In this document: positions 17,972 to 28,247 of the stretch, in pieces
Numbering within the stretch: the stretch's first letter is position 1
Layout: each line of letters opens with the position of its first letter
IMG/VR virus record: IMGVR_UViG_3300030450_000238
Coordinates: 1-29,261 of that record
Length of the DNA: 29,261 nucleotides
DNA from: a virus
Reading direction: 5' to 3' (one strand)
Position numbers and translations under genes: made by a program
Notes under the pieces: model-generated
What the model was told of the DNA's origin: nothing
The model's database searches: none
What the model saw: the letters and a program-made list of their open reading frames with translations, nothing else

Positions 17972-18594
17972 GCGACCACCTGATTTGTATCAACAGAAGC
18001 AGAGATAACCACAGATCCGCACACGATTTCTCCATAAACAATGGGATGTGCTGTCCCGGCTCGACTTGTATTTTGCACCCCTGAGAAATTAAAAGATATT
18101 CTTGGATCATCTTCCTGTTCTTCTGGTGTAGGCAATGGAAATAATATTTCAGAAACACCACTTAAAACCAAACCAGCACCAACAGCACTTAAAGCTGTTC
18201 CTATTTTTGTTGCAATCCCAGCACCAGCTAACCCTGCTGTACCAGTAGCTCCAAGTGCTTGTGTTCCAAACAAACCAGCACCCGGGAATAAGAATGACGC
18301 ACCAATCAAAGCACCGCCTAATAAAATTCTATTAAAACTACTACCACCAGCACCACTTATAACAGGTACAAAATGTATCTCTGATTTTCCTACAGGATCA
18401 TGTATTTGTTCTTTATCTAATTCATTATCTCCAACTAATACTTGATAATATCTATTGCTCATATATGCTTCTAATTTTGGAAAATTTGTTATTAAAAATT
18501 TAACAGCTTCTGCTGTAGTTTTTACAACAGCTTCAAATTCATCTTGACCTAAAAACTCAGCAAGTTCTCCATGTAATTTAATTTTTCTGAGCAT
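17968..18594 (-). CDS. I: Tail assembly protein, lambda gpI family, 208 aa
   Basis: The N-terminal 75 residues form a ubiquitin-like beta-grasp-type domain (MLRKIKLHGELAEFLGQDEF). A Gly/Ala-rich hydrophobic stretch follows at about 80-150 (ILLGGALIGASFLFPGAGLF), then the family's C-terminal segment FSGVQNTSRAGTAHPIVYGE. Lambda gpI is needed for assembly of the tail tip and is not found in the finished tail. The gene overlaps the gpK-like gene by 17 nt and the gpJ gene by 4 nt, as in lambda order K-I-J. The hydrophobic middle could insert into or cross the host membrane during entry; this is inference. Confidence 0.88.
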   Translation of the reverse strand: MLRKIKLHGELAEFLGQDEFEAVVKTTAEAVKFLITNFPKLEAYMSNRYYQVLVGDNELDKEQIHDPVGKSEIHFVPVISGAGGSSFNRILLGGALIGASFLFPGAGLFGTQALGATGTAGLAGAGIATKIGTALSAVGAGLVLSGVSEILFPLPTPEEQEDDPRISFNFSGVQNTSRAGTAHPIVYGEIVCGSVVISASVDTNQVVA

Positions 18595-19285
18595 AACGAT
18601 ACCTCTTACCAGTACATTTTTGTAACCACTCAGAATATGGCTCTCTACAAGATAGTCTATCGGCTAAATGATGTAAAACCATATCTCCTAAAAAAATAGC
18701 TACATGATTTAAAGTTGGATGTAGTATTGACATCAATAATACATCACCTTTTTCTAAATTCTCGTCTTTATCAAGTTCTCTAAATCCAGTTTGTATTGCA
18801 TATTTCTCAAATAAAGGATTTAACAAAAATTCTTCTGGAGACATATTTCGTTCATAATCAGATAAACTAATATTTTTTTTCTGTTGATAATAATCACGAA
18901 CTAAAGCCCAGCAATCTGTAATCCCCCAAACCCATTCTCTTCCTATAAGTGGTGCTTTATAACCTTGCGGCTCATAATATCCCCATGTTTCTAAAGTTGG
19001 ATTAACTATATACCAAGGTAAATTACTTTCCTCACAACTAACTTTATCTGCTTGTGTAGGTTCTGGTGAGGAGACAGGATGGCTATGAAAAACTCCAATA
19101 ATATCTCCAAGGTTATCTGCTTTTACATAATCTTCTGGGTCAAGAATAAAACATTGATGTGCTGTCATTGATAAATTACGACAAGGAAAATATCTTTCTT
19201 TGCCTTTTATGTTCAACACTAAACCTACAGCTTCTTTAGGATCTTGGTCTTTTGCATGAATTAATGCGTTATCTTTCCAATTCAT
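18578..19285 (-). CDS. K: Tail tip peptidase, JAMM plus NlpC/P60 domains, lambda gpK family, 235 aa
   Basis: Residues 1-105 carry a JAMM metalloprotease domain: Glu18, then the HSHP motif (His67, His69) and Asp80 in PEPTQADK. The Ser usual in the HxH-x7-S-x2-D motif is Thr77 here. Residues about 115-230 are an NlpC/P60 peptidoglycan peptidase domain with Cys125 in TDCWALV, His194 in NHVAIFLG, and a third polar residue probably His205 or 206 (VLHH). This two-domain layout is that of lambda gpK, which helps assemble the tip and is thought to open the cell wall during DNA entry. It overlaps the gpL-like gene by 4 nt. Confidence 0.92.
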   Translation of the reverse strand: MNWKDNALIHAKDQDPKEAVGLVLNIKGKERYFPCRNLSMTAHQCFILDPEDYVKADNLGDIIGVFHSHPVSSPEPTQADKVSCEESNLPWYIVNPTLETWGYYEPQGYKAPLIGREWVWGITDCWALVRDYYQQKKNISLSDYERNMSPEEFLLNPLFEKYAIQTGFRELDKDENLEKGDVLLMSILHPTLNHVAIFLGDMVLHHLADRLSCREPYSEWLQKCTGKRYRYAQKN

Positions 19286-20456: not shown

Positions 20457-22496
20457 TTATGTTAAAAGTCCTCCCGGTCTTTTTTGTTTTATCATTTCTG
20501 ATTGGATAGCAGCAGCTAAAGCTCTGCCAAACTCTTGTGATCTTGCAGAGTCTCCCTCAACAGAGCTACCAGAAGCATCTACATTTACAACAATATTACC
20601 AACACCTCCAGAACTTTGCACTCCAAGTTTTCCATTTGCGCCACGCTTTAATGGCATAATCGCTTCTGGCCCTGCTTCTCCCATAAGCCCCATGCCATTT
20701 GCCATTGGGAATAAAGTGGGTCTTGTAACTATGCCCCCTCTAGCATACTGCTTAATTGTGTTACCAGCATCTATAACATTTCCGTTTGCATTTTTAAATC
20801 TTCCTCCTGTTATTCCATGAAATAAAGGTTGAACAACAGCATATCTAACAAGCATCCTTGTTAAATCAGCAATAATAGAATTTGCTAAATCTCTAAAGTT
20901 TAATTTGCCTGTCTGTACAAACTTAACTAAAGCATCTTCCATTCCTTTAAACGCATTAACAAAAGCATCTTGAGCTTGCTTTGCTACATCAAACGCAGTC
21001 TCAGCAAATGTTTTTAAAGATGACTTATCTTTATCATCTCCAGTTGGATCTTGGAAGTTAGAACCTTCACCTCCACCTGTCTCATAGCCCTCCAAAAAGT
21101 CAAGTAAGTTACTTCTTGCTACACTTACTCTTCCTTTAGCAATACCTTCTCTTCTAGTTCCTTCTAATCTTTTCGCTGACTCTATAGCTGCTCTTAACGT
21201 GTTTTCTAGTTTTCTTCTTTGATTCTCATCGCCTATACCAAAGAACCTTCTAAATGCTTCAATAGCACCATTAATAGCATTAACTATTACAGTCATAGTC
21301 TTTTGTATTGCTGCACCAATAGGTTGCATTATACGACCAATATTAAGTTGTAGTTTCTGCATAGAAACTTGTAACTTTTGACCAGCATCCATACTGCTGT
21401 TAGCCATTTCAAGTGCAGCATCCCTATGATCCTTACTTAATTTCGCTACAAATTTCATAACGTCATTAAGACCTACAGTTCCATCTCTTAAGTCTTTTTG
21501 TAGTTGTGGTAATGTTCTTCCTGTTGCGTCTGCAAACTTAACAACGGCTCCCGGCAATCTTTCTCCAAGTTGACCTTGTAATTCTTCAGCCGACACCTTA
21601 CCTTTACCAAAAATCTGTGACATGGCTCGAATCGCAGATTGCACATCTTCCGCATCTCCACCAGTTGCCTTAATAGCTTCTGATACTCCTCTAAATACTT
21701 TTTCAGCATCATCAACATTACCTCCAGCACCTATAACTGATGCTGATAATGTTGTGAATTGTTTTGTTGAAGCACCTATAGGGACATTTAATTCATCAGA
21801 TACATCTGCAATTATCCTTTGTGCTTTGTTAAATTCTCCTTGTGTTTTTGTTACACCTTTTAACGCAATCTCAAGACGACCAATTTGTGCAGCATATTTA
21901 GCAGCAGCACTAGCAGCTTTTACAGTTTCTACAACACCTCCTATAGCAGCACCAACCGCAGCCCCCGCCGGCCCTCCAACTGCTGCTCCTGATAAACCAA
22001 AAGAACCTACAGCACCTAAATTACCAGCAACACCAGCACCAGCTATTGCTCCAAGTGCCGCTCTTTGACCAACACCCATATTTTTTGCAGAACCAATAAA
22101 TCTATCTCGCATTTTTGCAAATCTACCTCTGGTGTCCATCTGTGGGCCAATAGGTGATGCGTACTGCGTACCCGGCTGTATGCTTAAACTTGCATTTAAT
22201 TTATTTATCTCGTTTGTAAAACGACTATATGATGCACCGCCTTTATCAACTTGATCTCTTAGAACTTTAAAAGCTGCTATTTGTTCTTTAATTATTTTAT
22301 TACTTCTGGCATATTCACCATTAAAACTTTTTGCTCTTTTGTCTATTCTTAAAATACTGGCAACTGTTTCGTTTAAATTCTTTTTATTTAATACAAGTGT
22401 TTTATTTATTTTGCCAAACGTAGCCCCTAATTTTTTTAGCTCTTCTCCTCCAAAAGTTTTTATACCAATTTTTATGGTATTAGTTTCTTTTGCCAC
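20457..22496 (-). CDS. H: Tail tape measure protein, 679 aa
   Basis: The protein contains the tape-measure N-terminal domain at about residues 200-355, with the signature KGKVSAEELQGQLGERLPGA. A Gly/Ala-rich hydrophobic stretch lies at about 143-190. The C-terminus matches the lambda gpH type (DLANSIIADLTRMLVRYAVV, ARGGIVTRPTLFPMANGMGL, GEAGPEAIMPLKRG). It sets tail length, may exit with the DNA and span the envelope. By the usual scale of about 0.15 nm per residue the tail would be near 100 nm, an estimate only. The GTG start overlaps the stop of the preceding frame by 1 nt, and AAGGAG lies 9 nt upstream. Confidence 0.93.
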   Translation of the reverse strand: MAKETNTIKIGIKTFGGEELKKLGATFGKINKTLVLNKKNLNETVASILRIDKRAKSFNGEYARSNKIIKEQIAAFKVLRDQVDKGGASYSRFTNEINKLNASLSIQPGTQYASPIGPQMDTRGRFAKMRDRFIGSAKNMGVGQRAALGAIAGAGVAGNLGAVGSFGLSGAAVGGPAGAAVGAAIGGVVETVKAASAAAKYAAQIGRLEIALKGVTKTQGEFNKAQRIIADVSDELNVPIGASTKQFTTLSASVIGAGGNVDDAEKVFRGVSEAIKATGGDAEDVQSAIRAMSQIFGKGKVSAEELQGQLGERLPGAVVKFADATGRTLPQLQKDLRDGTVGLNDVMKFVAKLSKDHRDAALEMANSSMDAGQKLQVSMQKLQLNIGRIMQPIGAAIQKTMTVIVNAINGAIEAFRRFFGIGDENQRRKLENTLRAAIESAKRLEGTRREGIAKGRVSVARSNLLDFLEGYETGGGEGSNFQDPTGDDKDKSSLKTFAETAFDVAKQAQDAFVNAFKGMEDALVKFVQTGKLNFRDLANSIIADLTRMLVRYAVVQPLFHGITGGRFKNANGNVIDAGNTIKQYARGGIVTRPTLFPMANGMGLMGEAGPEAIMPLKRGANGKLGVQSSGGVGNIVVNVDASGSSVEGDSARSQEFGRALAAAIQSEMIKQKRPGGLLT

Positions 22497-22837
22497 TATT
22501 TCTTCTCCTTATTAGATTCTTGAATAGCAACAAATTCCATTAGTTGTAAACCTTCGAGCATTTCTTGTCGGTTATCTACATGATATAGGTCAAACAGTCC
22601 TCCATCAAGTAATAAAACCTCGTACTTTAATCCTACTACACCTCCAAAAGATGTGTTCCATTGTGTCTGACAACGTAAAAACATCATTACAATATCCCAA
22701 TTCTCATCAAAAACTTCAAAATCAACTTCTTCTTCTGGCTGTTCCTCAATTTCAACACCTAATGCAACAGCATCTTTTTGTGTTTCATCTATAGTTTTTT
22801 TGCCACCCGAAACCCAGTATAAAGCAGCATCAGTTAG
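22496..22837 (-). CDS. T: Tail assembly chaperone C-terminal extension (gpT-like part of a G-GT frameshift fusion)
   Basis: This frame is reached by a -1 slip at 22837-22843 and then encodes 113 residues: LTDAALYWVSGGKKTIDETQ directly after the slip, an acidic linker (EIEEQPEEEVDFEVFDENWD), then FLRCQTQWNTSFGGVVGLKY, which resembles the small DUF1799-type tail proteins. With the 110 residues from the upstream frame the fusion would have 223 aa. In lambda the GT product binds the tape measure and tube subunits during assembly, and this part lies directly before the tape measure gene, as there. An ATG at 22687 exists within the frame but has no Shine-Dalgarno sequence. Confidence 0.85.
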   Translation of the reverse strand, partial: LTDAALYWVSGGKKTIDETQKDAVALGVEIEEQPEEEVDFEVFDENWDIVMMFLRCQTQWNTSFGGVVGLKYEVLLLDGGLFDLYHVDNRQEMLEGLQLMEFVAIQESNKEKK

Positions 22838-23166
22838 TTTCCCACTTGTGCATTTCCATAGAATTTTTTAAAAGCATCTAATACACCAGCAACAAAATCT
22901 ATGTCTTCTGAAAATTCTTTTAAAGTTTTATCATTAAATTCTATTGGTGTACCATCTTCCTCGTTCATATCCTCCCAACCAACTAAAACTTTCTTCAAAG
23001 CATCAAATTCAGTTGAAGATTCAAACTCATCAAGTTCTGTTCTGGTAAGTCTTTTAAATTTACCAATAAATGTAGTTGAATCAAACTCTCCTACTTTTGT
23101 TTCGCTTGGTTGAGAGACTTCTACAGGCCAAGGATAAACTTTAGTCTTTTTTCTAACAAATGCCAT
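22834..23166 (-). CDS. G: Tail assembly chaperone, lambda gpG-like, 110 aa
   Basis: Position (between tail tube and tape measure) and size fit gpG (140 aa). The protein is acidic and helical, with LTRTELDEFESSTEFDALKK and TLKEFSEDIDFVAGVLDAFK, the usual composition of tail chaperones that coat the tape measure. The last sense codons GGA AAC before the TAA at 22836-22834 form part of a GGGAAAC slippery heptamer, so a fraction of ribosomes should continue in the -1 frame to make the longer G-T protein. The AAG AAG leader offers only a weak Shine-Dalgarno sequence. Confidence 0.85.
   Translation of the reverse strand: MAFVRKKTKVYPWPVEVSQPSETKVGEFDSTTFIGKFKRLTRTELDEFESSTEFDALKKVLVGWEDMNEEDGTPIEFNDKTLKEFSEDIDFVAGVLDAFKKFYGNAQVGN
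22837..22843 (-). promoter_or_regulatory. Programmed -1 frameshift site GGGAAAC
   Basis: In the minus strand the reading frame G-GGA-AAC-TAA places a canonical X-XXY-YYZ heptamer one codon before the stop of the G-like gene. The -1 frame is open from this point through to the 22496 stop, and the distance (150 nt to the internal ATG at 22687) is in register. Lambda uses GGGAAAG in the same place. No convincing downstream pseudoknot was seen. Confidence 0.85.
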
Positions 23167-23213
23167 AAATCAATATATATACTTCTTTACTCTACCTCAG
23201 TAGTCAATACTTA

Positions 23214-24146
23214 CTAAGTAAAGACTATACTTAGCTCATCATTTGCCGAACTTGGTACGAGTGTATATGGAATCTCTAACATAGTCACTCCATCAGCCTC
23301 ACCATAAGCAACGTCACCAATATCAACTTTTGTACTTGTAACTCTGACAATATTACCAGCAGCAGTACCATGTGTAACTGTTAGGTTACCTAAAGAAGTG
23401 TCAGATAATGCAGCGACAAAATAATCTTTCTGTGCCAAAGTTGGTGCTTCTATAGTGACAGCACCATTAGCTGCTCTATCAGTTAATAAAACCTCTTTTG
23501 TACCGCCAACAAGTTCTCTATAGACTATTGAGTTACCAACATCCATTGAAAAATTCATTAATGCTCCAGCAAATGATAATAACTGGAAGCTACTTGTATT
23601 TCCATTTTTAAATATTAATGGTGTTGCCTGATTTCCATAAGTTACAGAAGGCAATGCTGTATCTGTTGGGGCATTGTAGATTCCGGTAAAAGTAAAATCA
23701 ATCGAAGGGATTTCACCAACGGCTGCTGAGATCGCAAAAGTCCCTCGACATCCTGTAACAATATGCCTTACACCATCTACGTTGTAGTGAATAGTAACAG
23801 ATGAAAAACTAGCTGAGATAGGTTCGTAAGTAACGCTGGTTCCCGAACTGACCGTTTCCGAGAAGCCACACGCTTTAAGCGCACTTCCATATCTAGGCGC
23901 AGTTCCAGCAGTTCCAGATCCAGCAAGTTCTACGCTAAACGTACACTCAACTCTGGTGTTTGCTAGTAGCTGTTGAGATGCACCTAAATAAGGTCTGACA
24001 ACATCTCTGTTTACTACATCACTAGATTGTGGTGTGATTGACAGATCTCTTACAAGAACAACGTCTGTTGCTGCTGGAGTTGGATCTGTTCCATAGCTGC
24101 TCTCAGCTTCAATTAGAATTACTCTCTTCCTTGTCAGTTGTGCCAT
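23214..24146 (-). CDS. V: Major tail tube protein, 310 aa
   Basis: An all-beta protein starting QLTRKRVILIEAESSYGTDP, which matches the N-terminus of many siphophage tail tube proteins, followed by a domain with VECTFSVELAGSG and SIDFTFTGIYNAPTD and ending LEIPYTLVPSSANDELSIVF. It occupies the gpV position between tail terminator and chaperones. Rings of six copies would build the tube around the tape measure. GAGGT lies 9 nt upstream of the ATG. Its 5' end overlaps the 50-aa gene by 38 nt. The 47-nt gap to the chaperone gene is A/T-rich with only a weak 7-bp inverted repeat. Confidence 0.85.
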   Translation of the reverse strand: MAQLTRKRVILIEAESSYGTDPTPAATDVVLVRDLSITPQSSDVVNRDVVRPYLGASQQLLANTRVECTFSVELAGSGTAGTAPRYGSALKACGFSETVSSGTSVTYEPISASFSSVTIHYNVDGVRHIVTGCRGTFAISAAVGEIPSIDFTFTGIYNAPTDTALPSVTYGNQATPLIFKNGNTSSFQLLSFAGALMNFSMDVGNSIVYRELVGGTKEVLLTDRAANGAVTIEAPTLAQKDYFVAALSDTSLGNLTVTHGTAAGNIVRVTSTKVDIGDVAYGEADGVTMLEIPYTLVPSSANDELSIVFT

Positions 24147-25766: not shown

Positions 25767-28247
25767 TTATGTTCCGAAGGAGAACGCAGTTGGTTGCTTA
25801 ACAGCAAAGTCAACATCCTGTAATGCAATGATTCTTACGCTACCGCTTGTTGCATTTGCATATGGATCTACTGTTAGATCTAAACCAGACCACATACCGA
25901 TCACAAACTGTGAGAAGTCTCCAAAGAGTACATCGTTGTTTGCAAGCTGATTAGAAACAATAGCTGGATAGCCGTTGATTTCGTTGTTTTCAAACACAAA
26001 CTGTCCTGTGTTTGTAGCCTTTTCTGTTGACTTCAAAGCACCTCTGGCAGAAGCGTTGATTAAGTAGTACATATTAGCTACATCAGCGTTTGCTGCTGCA
26101 ACGTCTGTCTCAAGTGCTATGTACTCAGCAAATGTACCAAATGTAGTAATTGTTGATGTACCTACACCAGTTGTATCTTTGATACCTAATGGCTCGTTTG
26201 AACTACCAGATCCATAGATAGCTGCGTTATCTAACTTAGTAGCGATGACCTTAGCAATGTCATCTCTAATCATTGTCTCAACGTCTATAGATGATTGAAG
26301 TAGCAATCTTCTTGAGTAGTCAACGAAAGCACCGATTGTTTTTGGTGTCATGTTCACTTGGTCGAAAGCTTGCTGACTTTCTGTTGGTGCGCCTGACTCA
26401 CCTACAAAGTAAGCAGTTGATGTAGATGTCATTCTGGGGATGCTCACGTTACCAGAAAGTCCGGTCAACATGGTCGGATTCGTTGCCATCACAGCCATTC
26501 TTTTACGAAGAATGTCTATAAATGAGCCTGCTAATAATTCTGTTGGAACTAAGTTACCACCAGCAGTTGCAGTGCCTACATTCAAGTCTCTTTGTAAAAC
26601 TTCGTTAGGAACTAAAATTCCATTTGCAGGCTTCTCATACTTCTTAGAAGCTGCGTCAGATACCTCTCTCTCAAAAGCTGCTGCTTCTTGAGCTTGGCGA
26701 TCTGTTGGATTTGCTAGTGCGTTTAATGCTCTCAAGAAAGAGAATTGCTTAATTTCTTTTTGGTCTAAGCCAACTTCATTAGTACTCATGTCAGTAGAAC
26801 GTATTGGTGTATTAACTGCCTCTGCCTTGTTTTTAACAAGATCGAGGATAGCTGCTTTAGCTTCTGCTGGTGACTTATTAGATTTAATAAGTGAGTCAGT
26901 AAGCTCTTCTGCTCCATACTTTCCAAATTCACGACATAATGAAGTGATTGCTGCTGTACGAGCATTATTTTCATCTAAAGCACGTTGAACTTCGGCTTTG
27001 ATGTCGATCTCAACGGATTTCTCCGCTTCAACCGCAGTTTCTTTAGTTGATTCTTCCATAGTGCGAACCGAGGGTGATGCGGATTCTTCCGCAGAAATAA
27101 TCTCCTGTTGAGGTGATTTATCTTCCATAGTAATACTATTGCCTTGTGAGGGTGAGATCAAGCTTCTGCCGAAGCCGATTGTTGGATCAGCCGGAACTGT
27201 CACAACTGACAATTCGTGAACCGACCATGATCTTGCAAGCATACCATCTGCTGTCTCATCCATATCATTTATAGAATATCCAAAGCTAATTCCTCTAAGT
27301 ATTCCATCTTTTACATCTTCTAAAATCTCAGATGCAAACTTACTTCTTGAGAAACGGATCTTAGCATAGCCTCTTTTGTCTTCTCCAATATATGCACTTT
27401 CAACCACACCTATAGGCTTATCCATATTGTGATTAAAGAGAACTGCACCGCCATCATTTAGCCTGCTAAGATCAGCAGCACCATCTTCATGGCTTAATAC
27501 TTCGTTACCAAAATATCTTTTTACTGGATATTCAGAACTAAAAGGAAACTCAAATGTGCGTGATTTCACATTTTTAAAGTCCGTAACCTCTTTACGTTCA
27601 AATCTATCTCCAGCATCAACACTTCTAATCGCTGCAATTTTTGTAAGTGTCGAAAATTTATGGCCGACCTTTCTATCGGTAGCCTCCCCATTTCGATACA
27701 AAGTAATCAATGCAGCAGGGTCATCTGCTGTTCCAGTGATAGTAAAGGAACTATCAGGTACATCTATTGATCCATCTCTTACGATACGATCAATTTTTCC
27801 TCTAGCTGTACCACCGCTAGAGTTCCATCTAACAAAATCACCAACCTTAAGCCCATCGGGTTCGGCTCTGTGTTCTGTTTTAGTTTCTTCAGTCATAGTG
27901 CGTTCTCTTGCTTTTTTGATTGAATTAGACTTTGACCTAGCCCAAGTTTGACCAGAGTCACCGCCCCAAGCTGCCCAGCTTACCCGGCCATTACTAGGAT
28001 AGCCTTCTTCCCCCGGACGGAAACCCTTTCCGGCTTTATCTGACTCATGGCGGGCGAACCATGCGTTCATTGTAATAACTGTATCTGGTGATAGCTCGTT
28101 TCCGCTTAATATTTGTGTTGCTCTTGTCCTTGCGTCATCTGTACCACCAGCTTCTCCTTCTTTTTTCCAAGCCCTATATCTTTCTGCTTCTTTCCTCATA
28201 CCCTCAGTAGGCATCAGGTTTATGTCCGTTCCATTAACATTTGCCAT
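25767..28247 (-). CDS. Fused head maturation protease and major capsid protein with two extra N-terminal domains, 826 aa
   Basis: Residues about 15-115 are a domain with LSPDTVITMNAWFARHESDK and WAAWGGDSGQTWARSK, a unit of unknown role seen next to phage proteases. Residues about 130-205 match the Hva1/TUDOR (DUF2945) pattern (GLKVGDFVRWNSSGGTARGK...VGHKFSTLTKI). Residues about 230-365 are the prohead protease (S78): His273 in FNHN, Ser321 in GISFGY and Glu345 in VHELSVVTVPADP. Residues 375-480 are a charged helical scaffold-like segment. From about 535 to the end is an HK97-fold capsid protein (GNLVPTELLAGSFIDILRKR...YGSGSSNEPLGI). Self-cleavage should release the capsid subunit. A possible internal start is Met118 (27896). 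Confidence 0.92.
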   Translation of the reverse strand: MANVNGTDINLMPTEGMRKEAERYRAWKKEGEAGGTDDARTRATQILSGNELSPDTVITMNAWFARHESDKAGKGFRPGEEGYPSNGRVSWAAWGGDSGQTWARSKSNSIKKARERTMTEETKTEHRAEPDGLKVGDFVRWNSSGGTARGKIDRIVRDGSIDVPDSSFTITGTADDPAALITLYRNGEATDRKVGHKFSTLTKIAAIRSVDAGDRFERKEVTDFKNVKSRTFEFPFSSEYPVKRYFGNEVLSHEDGAADLSRLNDGGAVLFNHNMDKPIGVVESAYIGEDKRGYAKIRFSRSKFASEILEDVKDGILRGISFGYSINDMDETADGMLARSWSVHELSVVTVPADPTIGFGRSLISPSQGNSITMEDKSPQQEIISAEESASPSVRTMEESTKETAVEAEKSVEIDIKAEVQRALDENNARTAAITSLCREFGKYGAEELTDSLIKSNKSPAEAKAAILDLVKNKAEAVNTPIRSTDMSTNEVGLDQKEIKQFSFLRALNALANPTDRQAQEAAAFEREVSDAASKKYEKPANGILVPNEVLQRDLNVGTATAGGNLVPTELLAGSFIDILRKRMAVMATNPTMLTGLSGNVSIPRMTSTSTAYFVGESGAPTESQQAFDQVNMTPKTIGAFVDYSRRLLLQSSIDVETMIRDDIAKVIATKLDNAAIYGSGSSNEPLGIKDTTGVGTSTITTFGTFAEYIALETDVAAANADVANMYYLINASARGALKSTEKATNTGQFVFENNEINGYPAIVSNQLANNDVLFGDFSQFVIGMWSGLDLTVDPYANATSGSVRIIALQDVDFAVKQPTAFSFGT

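Follow-up and report, generated by a model that had tools for sequence, protein, structure and literature searches.

The two overlapping reading frames that separate the tail tube gene of this marine phage from its tape measure gene are, in all likelihood, expressed through a programmed -1 ribosomal frameshift of the type known for genes G and GT of phage lambda. The window analysed here, a stretch of 29,261 bases, is a linear virus record in which all genes are on the minus strand, a point absent from an earlier sequence-only reading of the same DNA. The frameshift site is defined by its phase, its position, the opening of the -1 frame and its conservation in relatives. Beyond the site itself, comparison of relatives points to a conserved RNA structure immediately downstream.

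Organisation of the tail chaperone locus

The features of the locus are given in Table 1. The 110-aa ORF ends with GTG GGA AAC TAA, so that the heptamer (22843..22837, minus strand) is read in the phase G-GGA-AAC and touches the stop codon. In the -1 frame, the CTA codon at 22837 is followed through 113 open codons (LTDAALYWV...) to the TAG at 22498..22496, and base 22496 is common to this TAG and to the GTG of the tape measure gene. The predicted G+T fusion is 223 aa long. The sequence-only reading had proposed the in-phase heptamer touching the TAA, the 113 open codons up to the tape measure start and a 223-aa fusion in the lambda order; all its numbers hold.

Table 1. Coordinates of the features of the G/GT locus in the window; plus signs count nucleotides after the heptamer
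Feature	Position	Strand	Evidence
Tail tube protein, preceding gene	23214..24146	-	Phage_tube_2, E 1e-20
Gene G-like ORF, 110 aa + TAA	22834..23166	-	Product ends ...QVGN; phrog_569, E 4.8e-10
Slippery heptamer G_GGA_AAC (GGGAAAC)	22837..22843	-	X_XXA_AAC in 122/122 distinct relatives
Zero-frame stop TAA, adjoining the heptamer	22834..22836	-	Contact with heptamer in 183/198 wider-family sites
T-like -1 extension, 113 aa + TAG, DUF1799	22496..22837	-	PF08809, E 1.5e-10; phrog_680, E 7.4e-19
Stem 1, 5' arm UGCUGCU, +8..+14	22823..22829	-	RNAalifold consensus; pairing versus slides
Stem 1, 3' arm GGUGGCA, +30..+36	22801..22807	-	RNAalifold consensus; pairing versus slides
Proposed stem 2, 5' arm in stem 1 loop, UGGGUUUC, +21..+28	22809..22816	-	T codons 9-10, synonymous sites invariant
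Proposed stem 2, 3' arm GGAAC-AG-CCA with two-base bulge, +92..+101	22736..22745	-	Covariation
Tape measure protein, 679 aa, next gene	20457..22496	-	TMP_3, E 7e-30; Tape_meas_lam_C, E 3e-26; strong Shine-Dalgarno

In the sense of transcription, the genes before the locus encode a lambda-family portal (Phage_portal_2), a protein in which protease and capsid are fused, a head-tail attachment protein, a tail terminator and, last, the tail tube protein; the locus is followed by the tape measure gene, with a lambda-type C-terminal domain, and by genes for lambda-type minor tail proteins and NlpC/P60. Two overlapping ORFs occupy the interval from the tail tube gene to the tape measure gene, and the profile matches, together with the neighbouring genes, place the G-like and T-like parts exactly at the positions of lambda G and T. 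The second part matched DUF1799 (PF08809) with 41.6 bits against a curated cut-off of 26, and a search of PDB sequences with the T profile returned no match. The AlphaFold2 model of the G part had a pLDDT of 80. Foldseek gave no significant match with the G and T models; VIA-align of the G model gave weak rows only, with YqbN (3klu) at the top (Z 3.4) and the HK97 tail assembly chaperone (2ob9) in third place (Z 2.8), and two of its top three rows are proteins of the tail chaperone type.

Several other properties of the window were recorded. A single 826-aa ORF (25767-28247, minus strand) carries an N-terminal phrog_2859 region, Hva1_TUDOR, a prohead serine protease and an HK97-type capsid, and another ORF (18578-19285, minus strand) encodes a lambda gpK-like protein with JAB and NlpC/P60 domains. 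At 23166-23230 (minus strand), gene G has no Shine-Dalgarno sequence, in the window or in relatives, and the tape measure gene has a strong one; the mean Shine-Dalgarno duplex was -0.5 kcal/mol for gene G, -3.0 kcal/mol for internal T starts and -8.8 kcal/mol for the tape measure gene. No tRNA gene was found in the window. A host search in genome contigs gave a single match, to a contig of a Maricaulis MAG; as this contig is the counterpart of a viral contig that the set already included, no host was called.

Conservation of the slip site

Relatives were taken from IMG/VR, and counts refer to distinct gene pairs (112) or, for the final set, to distinct junctions (122). Bare GGGAAAC occurs twice in the window for 2.3 expected, which is close to chance; presence alone is therefore uninformative, bare heptamer counts were dropped as evidence and conservation decides. 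An X_XXA_AAC heptamer, in phase and directly before the stop codon, was found in all 112 gene pairs and at all 122 junctions. The first part was 110 aa long in every one of the 112 pairs, and the second part was always in the -1 frame. A close relative without the heptamer, named beforehand as an observation that would speak against frameshifting, was found at none of the 122 junctions. These carried either GGGAAAC (95) or AAAAAAC (27), followed by TAA (118), TAG (2) or TGA (2). On a tree built without the site, five block swaps between GGG and AAA were each forced by branches with good support (a tree of the G part alone gave six swaps), and no intermediates between GGG and AAA were seen among the relatives.

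The last base of the heptamer is equally constrained. The Asn codon of the heptamer was AAC in 112/112 pairs, as against 27% AAC at other Asn codons, and the remaining Asn codons of the G part numbered 330 AAT and 77 AAC. As a C to T change would leave Asn in frame 0 and Leu (TTA) in frame -1, the C is demanded by neither protein. The residue itself, N110 of the G part, was invariant in 37 homologues. In 47 relatives the -1 frame closes five codons before the heptamer, and in 52 it closes ten codons before it, which implies that the frameshift must occur at the heptamer.

The site is also common to remote relatives, namely Synechococcus phage S-CBS1, an Escherichia coli Dhillonvirus group and a GC-rich group. 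In S-CBS1, AAAAAAC stands directly before TGA and is followed by a DUF1799-like extension; in Escherichia phage JLBYU27 (Dhillonvirus), AAAAAAC stands directly before TAA, again with a DUF1799-like extension. In the wider family, three groups taken together gave 198 rows in which X_XXA_AAC was found; all three stop codons were represented, and the 15 sites that do not touch the stop lie one codon before it. The rows outside this count were L181 and L309, both truncated where the contig ends, L276 (unrelated partial match), L305, which has other slippery runs instead (GGGAAAA, AAAAAAA), and L160, the distantly related Klebsiella phage VAC8 (Webervirus), in which no in-phase heptamer was found. 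The present annotation of two isolated phages differs from these readings. In S-CBS1 (HM480106.1, 11563-12215), gp13 and gp14 are entered as separate genes, the call for gp14 is too short by 23 codons and no fusion is annotated. In JLBYU27 (OK272475.1, 11223-11899), the annotated T part is a DUF1799 fragment of 31 aa, and AAAAAAC TAA together with a GGCGGCG/CGCCGCC stem indicate a 105-aa frameshifted extension.

A conserved stem and a candidate pseudoknot downstream of the heptamer

Unguided RNAalifold folding of 83 distinct sequences gave a 7-bp stem (stem 1, +8..+14 with +30..+36) starting 7 nt after the heptamer. In this alignment, 99.8% of the cells were paired, compared to 27-57% when the partner was slid, and pairing across the 122 sequences reached 99.4% of cells. 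The pair types interchange without mismatch (UG/CG/UA and GU/AU/GC), and when 189 nt were scanned in 102 sequences, stem 1 was the sole conserved helix of seven pairs. T codons 8-13 show almost no synonymous variation (TCG in 109/109, for example), and shuffling of synonymous codons in 42 representatives gave a mean z of -1.59 at +4..+42 compared to -0.32 in a control stretch. In the S-CBS1 group, a stem is present at the same place in another register, with 84.9% of cells paired versus 29-35% when slid by 1-2 columns and 59-74% by 3 columns, and 11 cells were changed on both sides. Combined, these comparisons indicate that stem 1, newly described here, is a probable RNA stimulator of the slip. 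A search of Rfam over the region gave no match. A G-quadruplex considered for the G-rich loop was dropped; the G runs of relatives are broken by changes that preserve stem 1.

The same scan revealed a second helix, in which +24..+28 of the loop pair with +92..+96 and three further pairs follow past a two-base bulge. In the 94 sequences in which pair 25-95 was first scored, it was CG in 88 and UA in the other 6, and GAA or AAA stands at codon 32 only if position 25 is U. Each partner changes five times on the tree, both sides together; four independent supported contrasts agree, for which the sign test gives p = 0.125, the floor for four. Across the 122 sequences, the pair was CG in 109, UA in 8 and CA in 5, the CA cases being part of a divergent set that has lost the stem 2 helix; stem 2 is absent or broken in 9 of the 122. 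At the 3' arm, the synonymous choice was invariant among sequences keeping the residue (GAG31 in 98/98, CCA34 in 102/102). No consistent helix between the stem 1 loop and downstream sequence was found in the S-CBS1 and E. coli groups. As regards an H-type pseudoknot, the pairing of stem 1 is well supported and the covariation of stem 2 comes from few lineages; the two stems, the second being lineage-specific, probably form such a structure. In the divergent rows without stem 2 (L414, L420, L421, L422, L433, L434, L436), T codon 10 is changed from TCG to TCT; the changed position, +29, is in neither stem.

Alternative explanations

Programmed frameshifting has to be weighed against other origins of the second part. 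If there were two separate genes, the second part would be translated alone, either from a start codon inside it or by ribosomes that re-initiate after the stop. S-CBS1 is annotated in this manner, with gp14 starting 23 codons into the second part, and gene G is also without Shine-Dalgarno sequence, so that its absence is no bar. The sequence-only reading had argued from the internal ATG on two grounds. The loss of residues stands: the first NTG of the -1 ORF is ATG 22687, at codon 51, and a start there would drop 50 residues. The missing ribosome site at this ATG is a weak argument that does not discriminate, since G itself lacks one. What does count against two genes is that the second part has no conserved independent start among the 112 distinct gene pairs: its first ATG or GTG shifts between codons 24, 27, 34, 35, 41, 42, 50 and 51, and some relatives have none at all. 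In tblastn, matches to the second part take in its very first residue, one base back from where ORF 1 ends, and homology thus reaches back to a first codon overlapping the last base of the heptamer, itself invariant at all 122 junctions. We therefore hold two genes to be very improbable, and the frameshift interpretation is supported by the lack both of close relatives without the heptamer and of a conserved start. The fusion could instead result from transcriptional slippage, for which the six-A run of the AAAAAAC variant might be suitable; the runs of the window, GGG and AAA, are three bases each, too short for polymerase slippage as usually described, whereas the phase, the position of the stop and the covarying downstream stem suit slippage of the ribosome, and the likelihood of a transcriptional origin is accordingly slight. 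An assembly indel or a decayed gene is the least credible origin: one contig alone could carry such an error, but over 120 distinct contigs, and isolated phages too, show the same frame change, and the relatives refute it.

A different objection accepts the frameshift and ascribes the conservation of the downstream RNA to protein or codon constraint, with no stimulator. It is consistent with the behaviour of the lone hairpin of the window, which was not more stable than shuffles in single-sequence folding (z -0.18), so that the support for the stem is comparative and not thermodynamic, and with the synonymous shuffles of the window's own group, which were just mildly unusual (mean z -0.88). 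The compensating changes in stem 1 and at pair 25-95, the synonymous invariance of the TCG, GAG and CCA codons and the sliding controls speak against it, and we regard this explanation as unlikely.

Comparison with known frameshift systems

Frameshifting of the lambda G/GT type is textbook knowledge, and the lambda gpG/gpGT shift was reportedly studied by Levin in 1993 and by Xu, Hendrix and Duda in 2004 and 2013. As in lambda, the locus has the order tail tube gene, G, -1 frame T and tape measure, an X_XXA_AAZ heptamer near the end of G and the fusion of a C-terminal domain. In contrast to lambda, the heptamer ends with C and not G, the stop codon touches it, the T domain is DUF1799 and a covarying downstream RNA structure is proposed. 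The earlier description of the slip sequence as one base from that of lambda is right as a count and understates the difference, since X_XXA_AAC is poor in E. coli. The lambda shift is reviewed in PMC5009743; heptamers of the form X_XXA_AAC have low efficiency in E. coli, yet are probably used by IS elements (Sharma et al., PMC4066793). A stimulator, or a different tRNA state in the host, is thus a reasonable expectation for such heptamers.

In Burkholderia phage KL1, a GGGAAAC immediately before TGA and a downstream stem-loop were predicted for gp18/gp19 (PMC3483164). KL1 is likened to the present case by its site, both features being predictions; it differs by an extra gene before the tape measure gene and by a prediction made without comparative RNA evidence. 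The same two heptamers found here are present at the tail chaperone frameshifts of the Caulobacter phages phiCbK (AAAAAAC) and Colossus (GGGAAAC) (PMC3556154) and of the haloviruses HCTV-1 and HCTV-2 (PMC5009743), phages that are larger or archaeal and are likened here by their heptamers. Given these precedents, KL1 included, novelty lies neither in the heptamer nor in its contact with the stop. In S-CBS1 (HM480106), the G and T parts are homologous, AAAAAAC adjoins a TGA and a strong stem is present at the same place; it differs by its annotation as two genes and by the shifted register of the stem, and no matching second helix was found in it. In the literature covered, which includes few subscription papers, no paper linking DUF1799 with frameshifting was found, and none was met that describes a conserved pseudoknot for a tail chaperone frameshift.

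Proposed mechanism and significance

Under the frameshift model, most ribosomes would stop at the UAA after G_GGA_AAC and yield the 110-aa chaperone G, and a minority would slip back one base, with GGA-AAC re-pairing as GGG-AAA, and read the 113 further codons to give the 223-aa GT. The downstream stem-loop, at 7 nt, would raise the slip rate, in this lineage probably as a pseudoknot, and the touching stop codon may aid the slip by holding the ribosome at the site. By analogy with lambda, whose G protein covers the tape measure protein and whose T part brings in the tail tube protein, G and GT would act on the same two partners. More tentatively, it is possible that the AAC-ending heptamer, the touching stop and a conserved pseudoknot form a module of the DUF1799 lineage, setting the ratio of G to GT in hosts with a tRNA-Asn slippier than that of E. 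coli.

In conclusion, the finding of a frameshift site is correct, well-supported and ordinary, and the RNA structure is an extra layer; of note are a heptamer type poor in E. coli and a probable, covarying stimulator. This fixes how two tail genes are annotated, both across a large group of marine phages that are uncultured and in isolates such as S-CBS1 and Dhillonvirus, in which the fusion protein was missed. The approximately 200 sites constitute a well-sampled comparative case in which heptamer, stop and downstream RNA structure can be traced over evolution, and they raise the question of why heptamers that work poorly in E. coli are retained by these phages.
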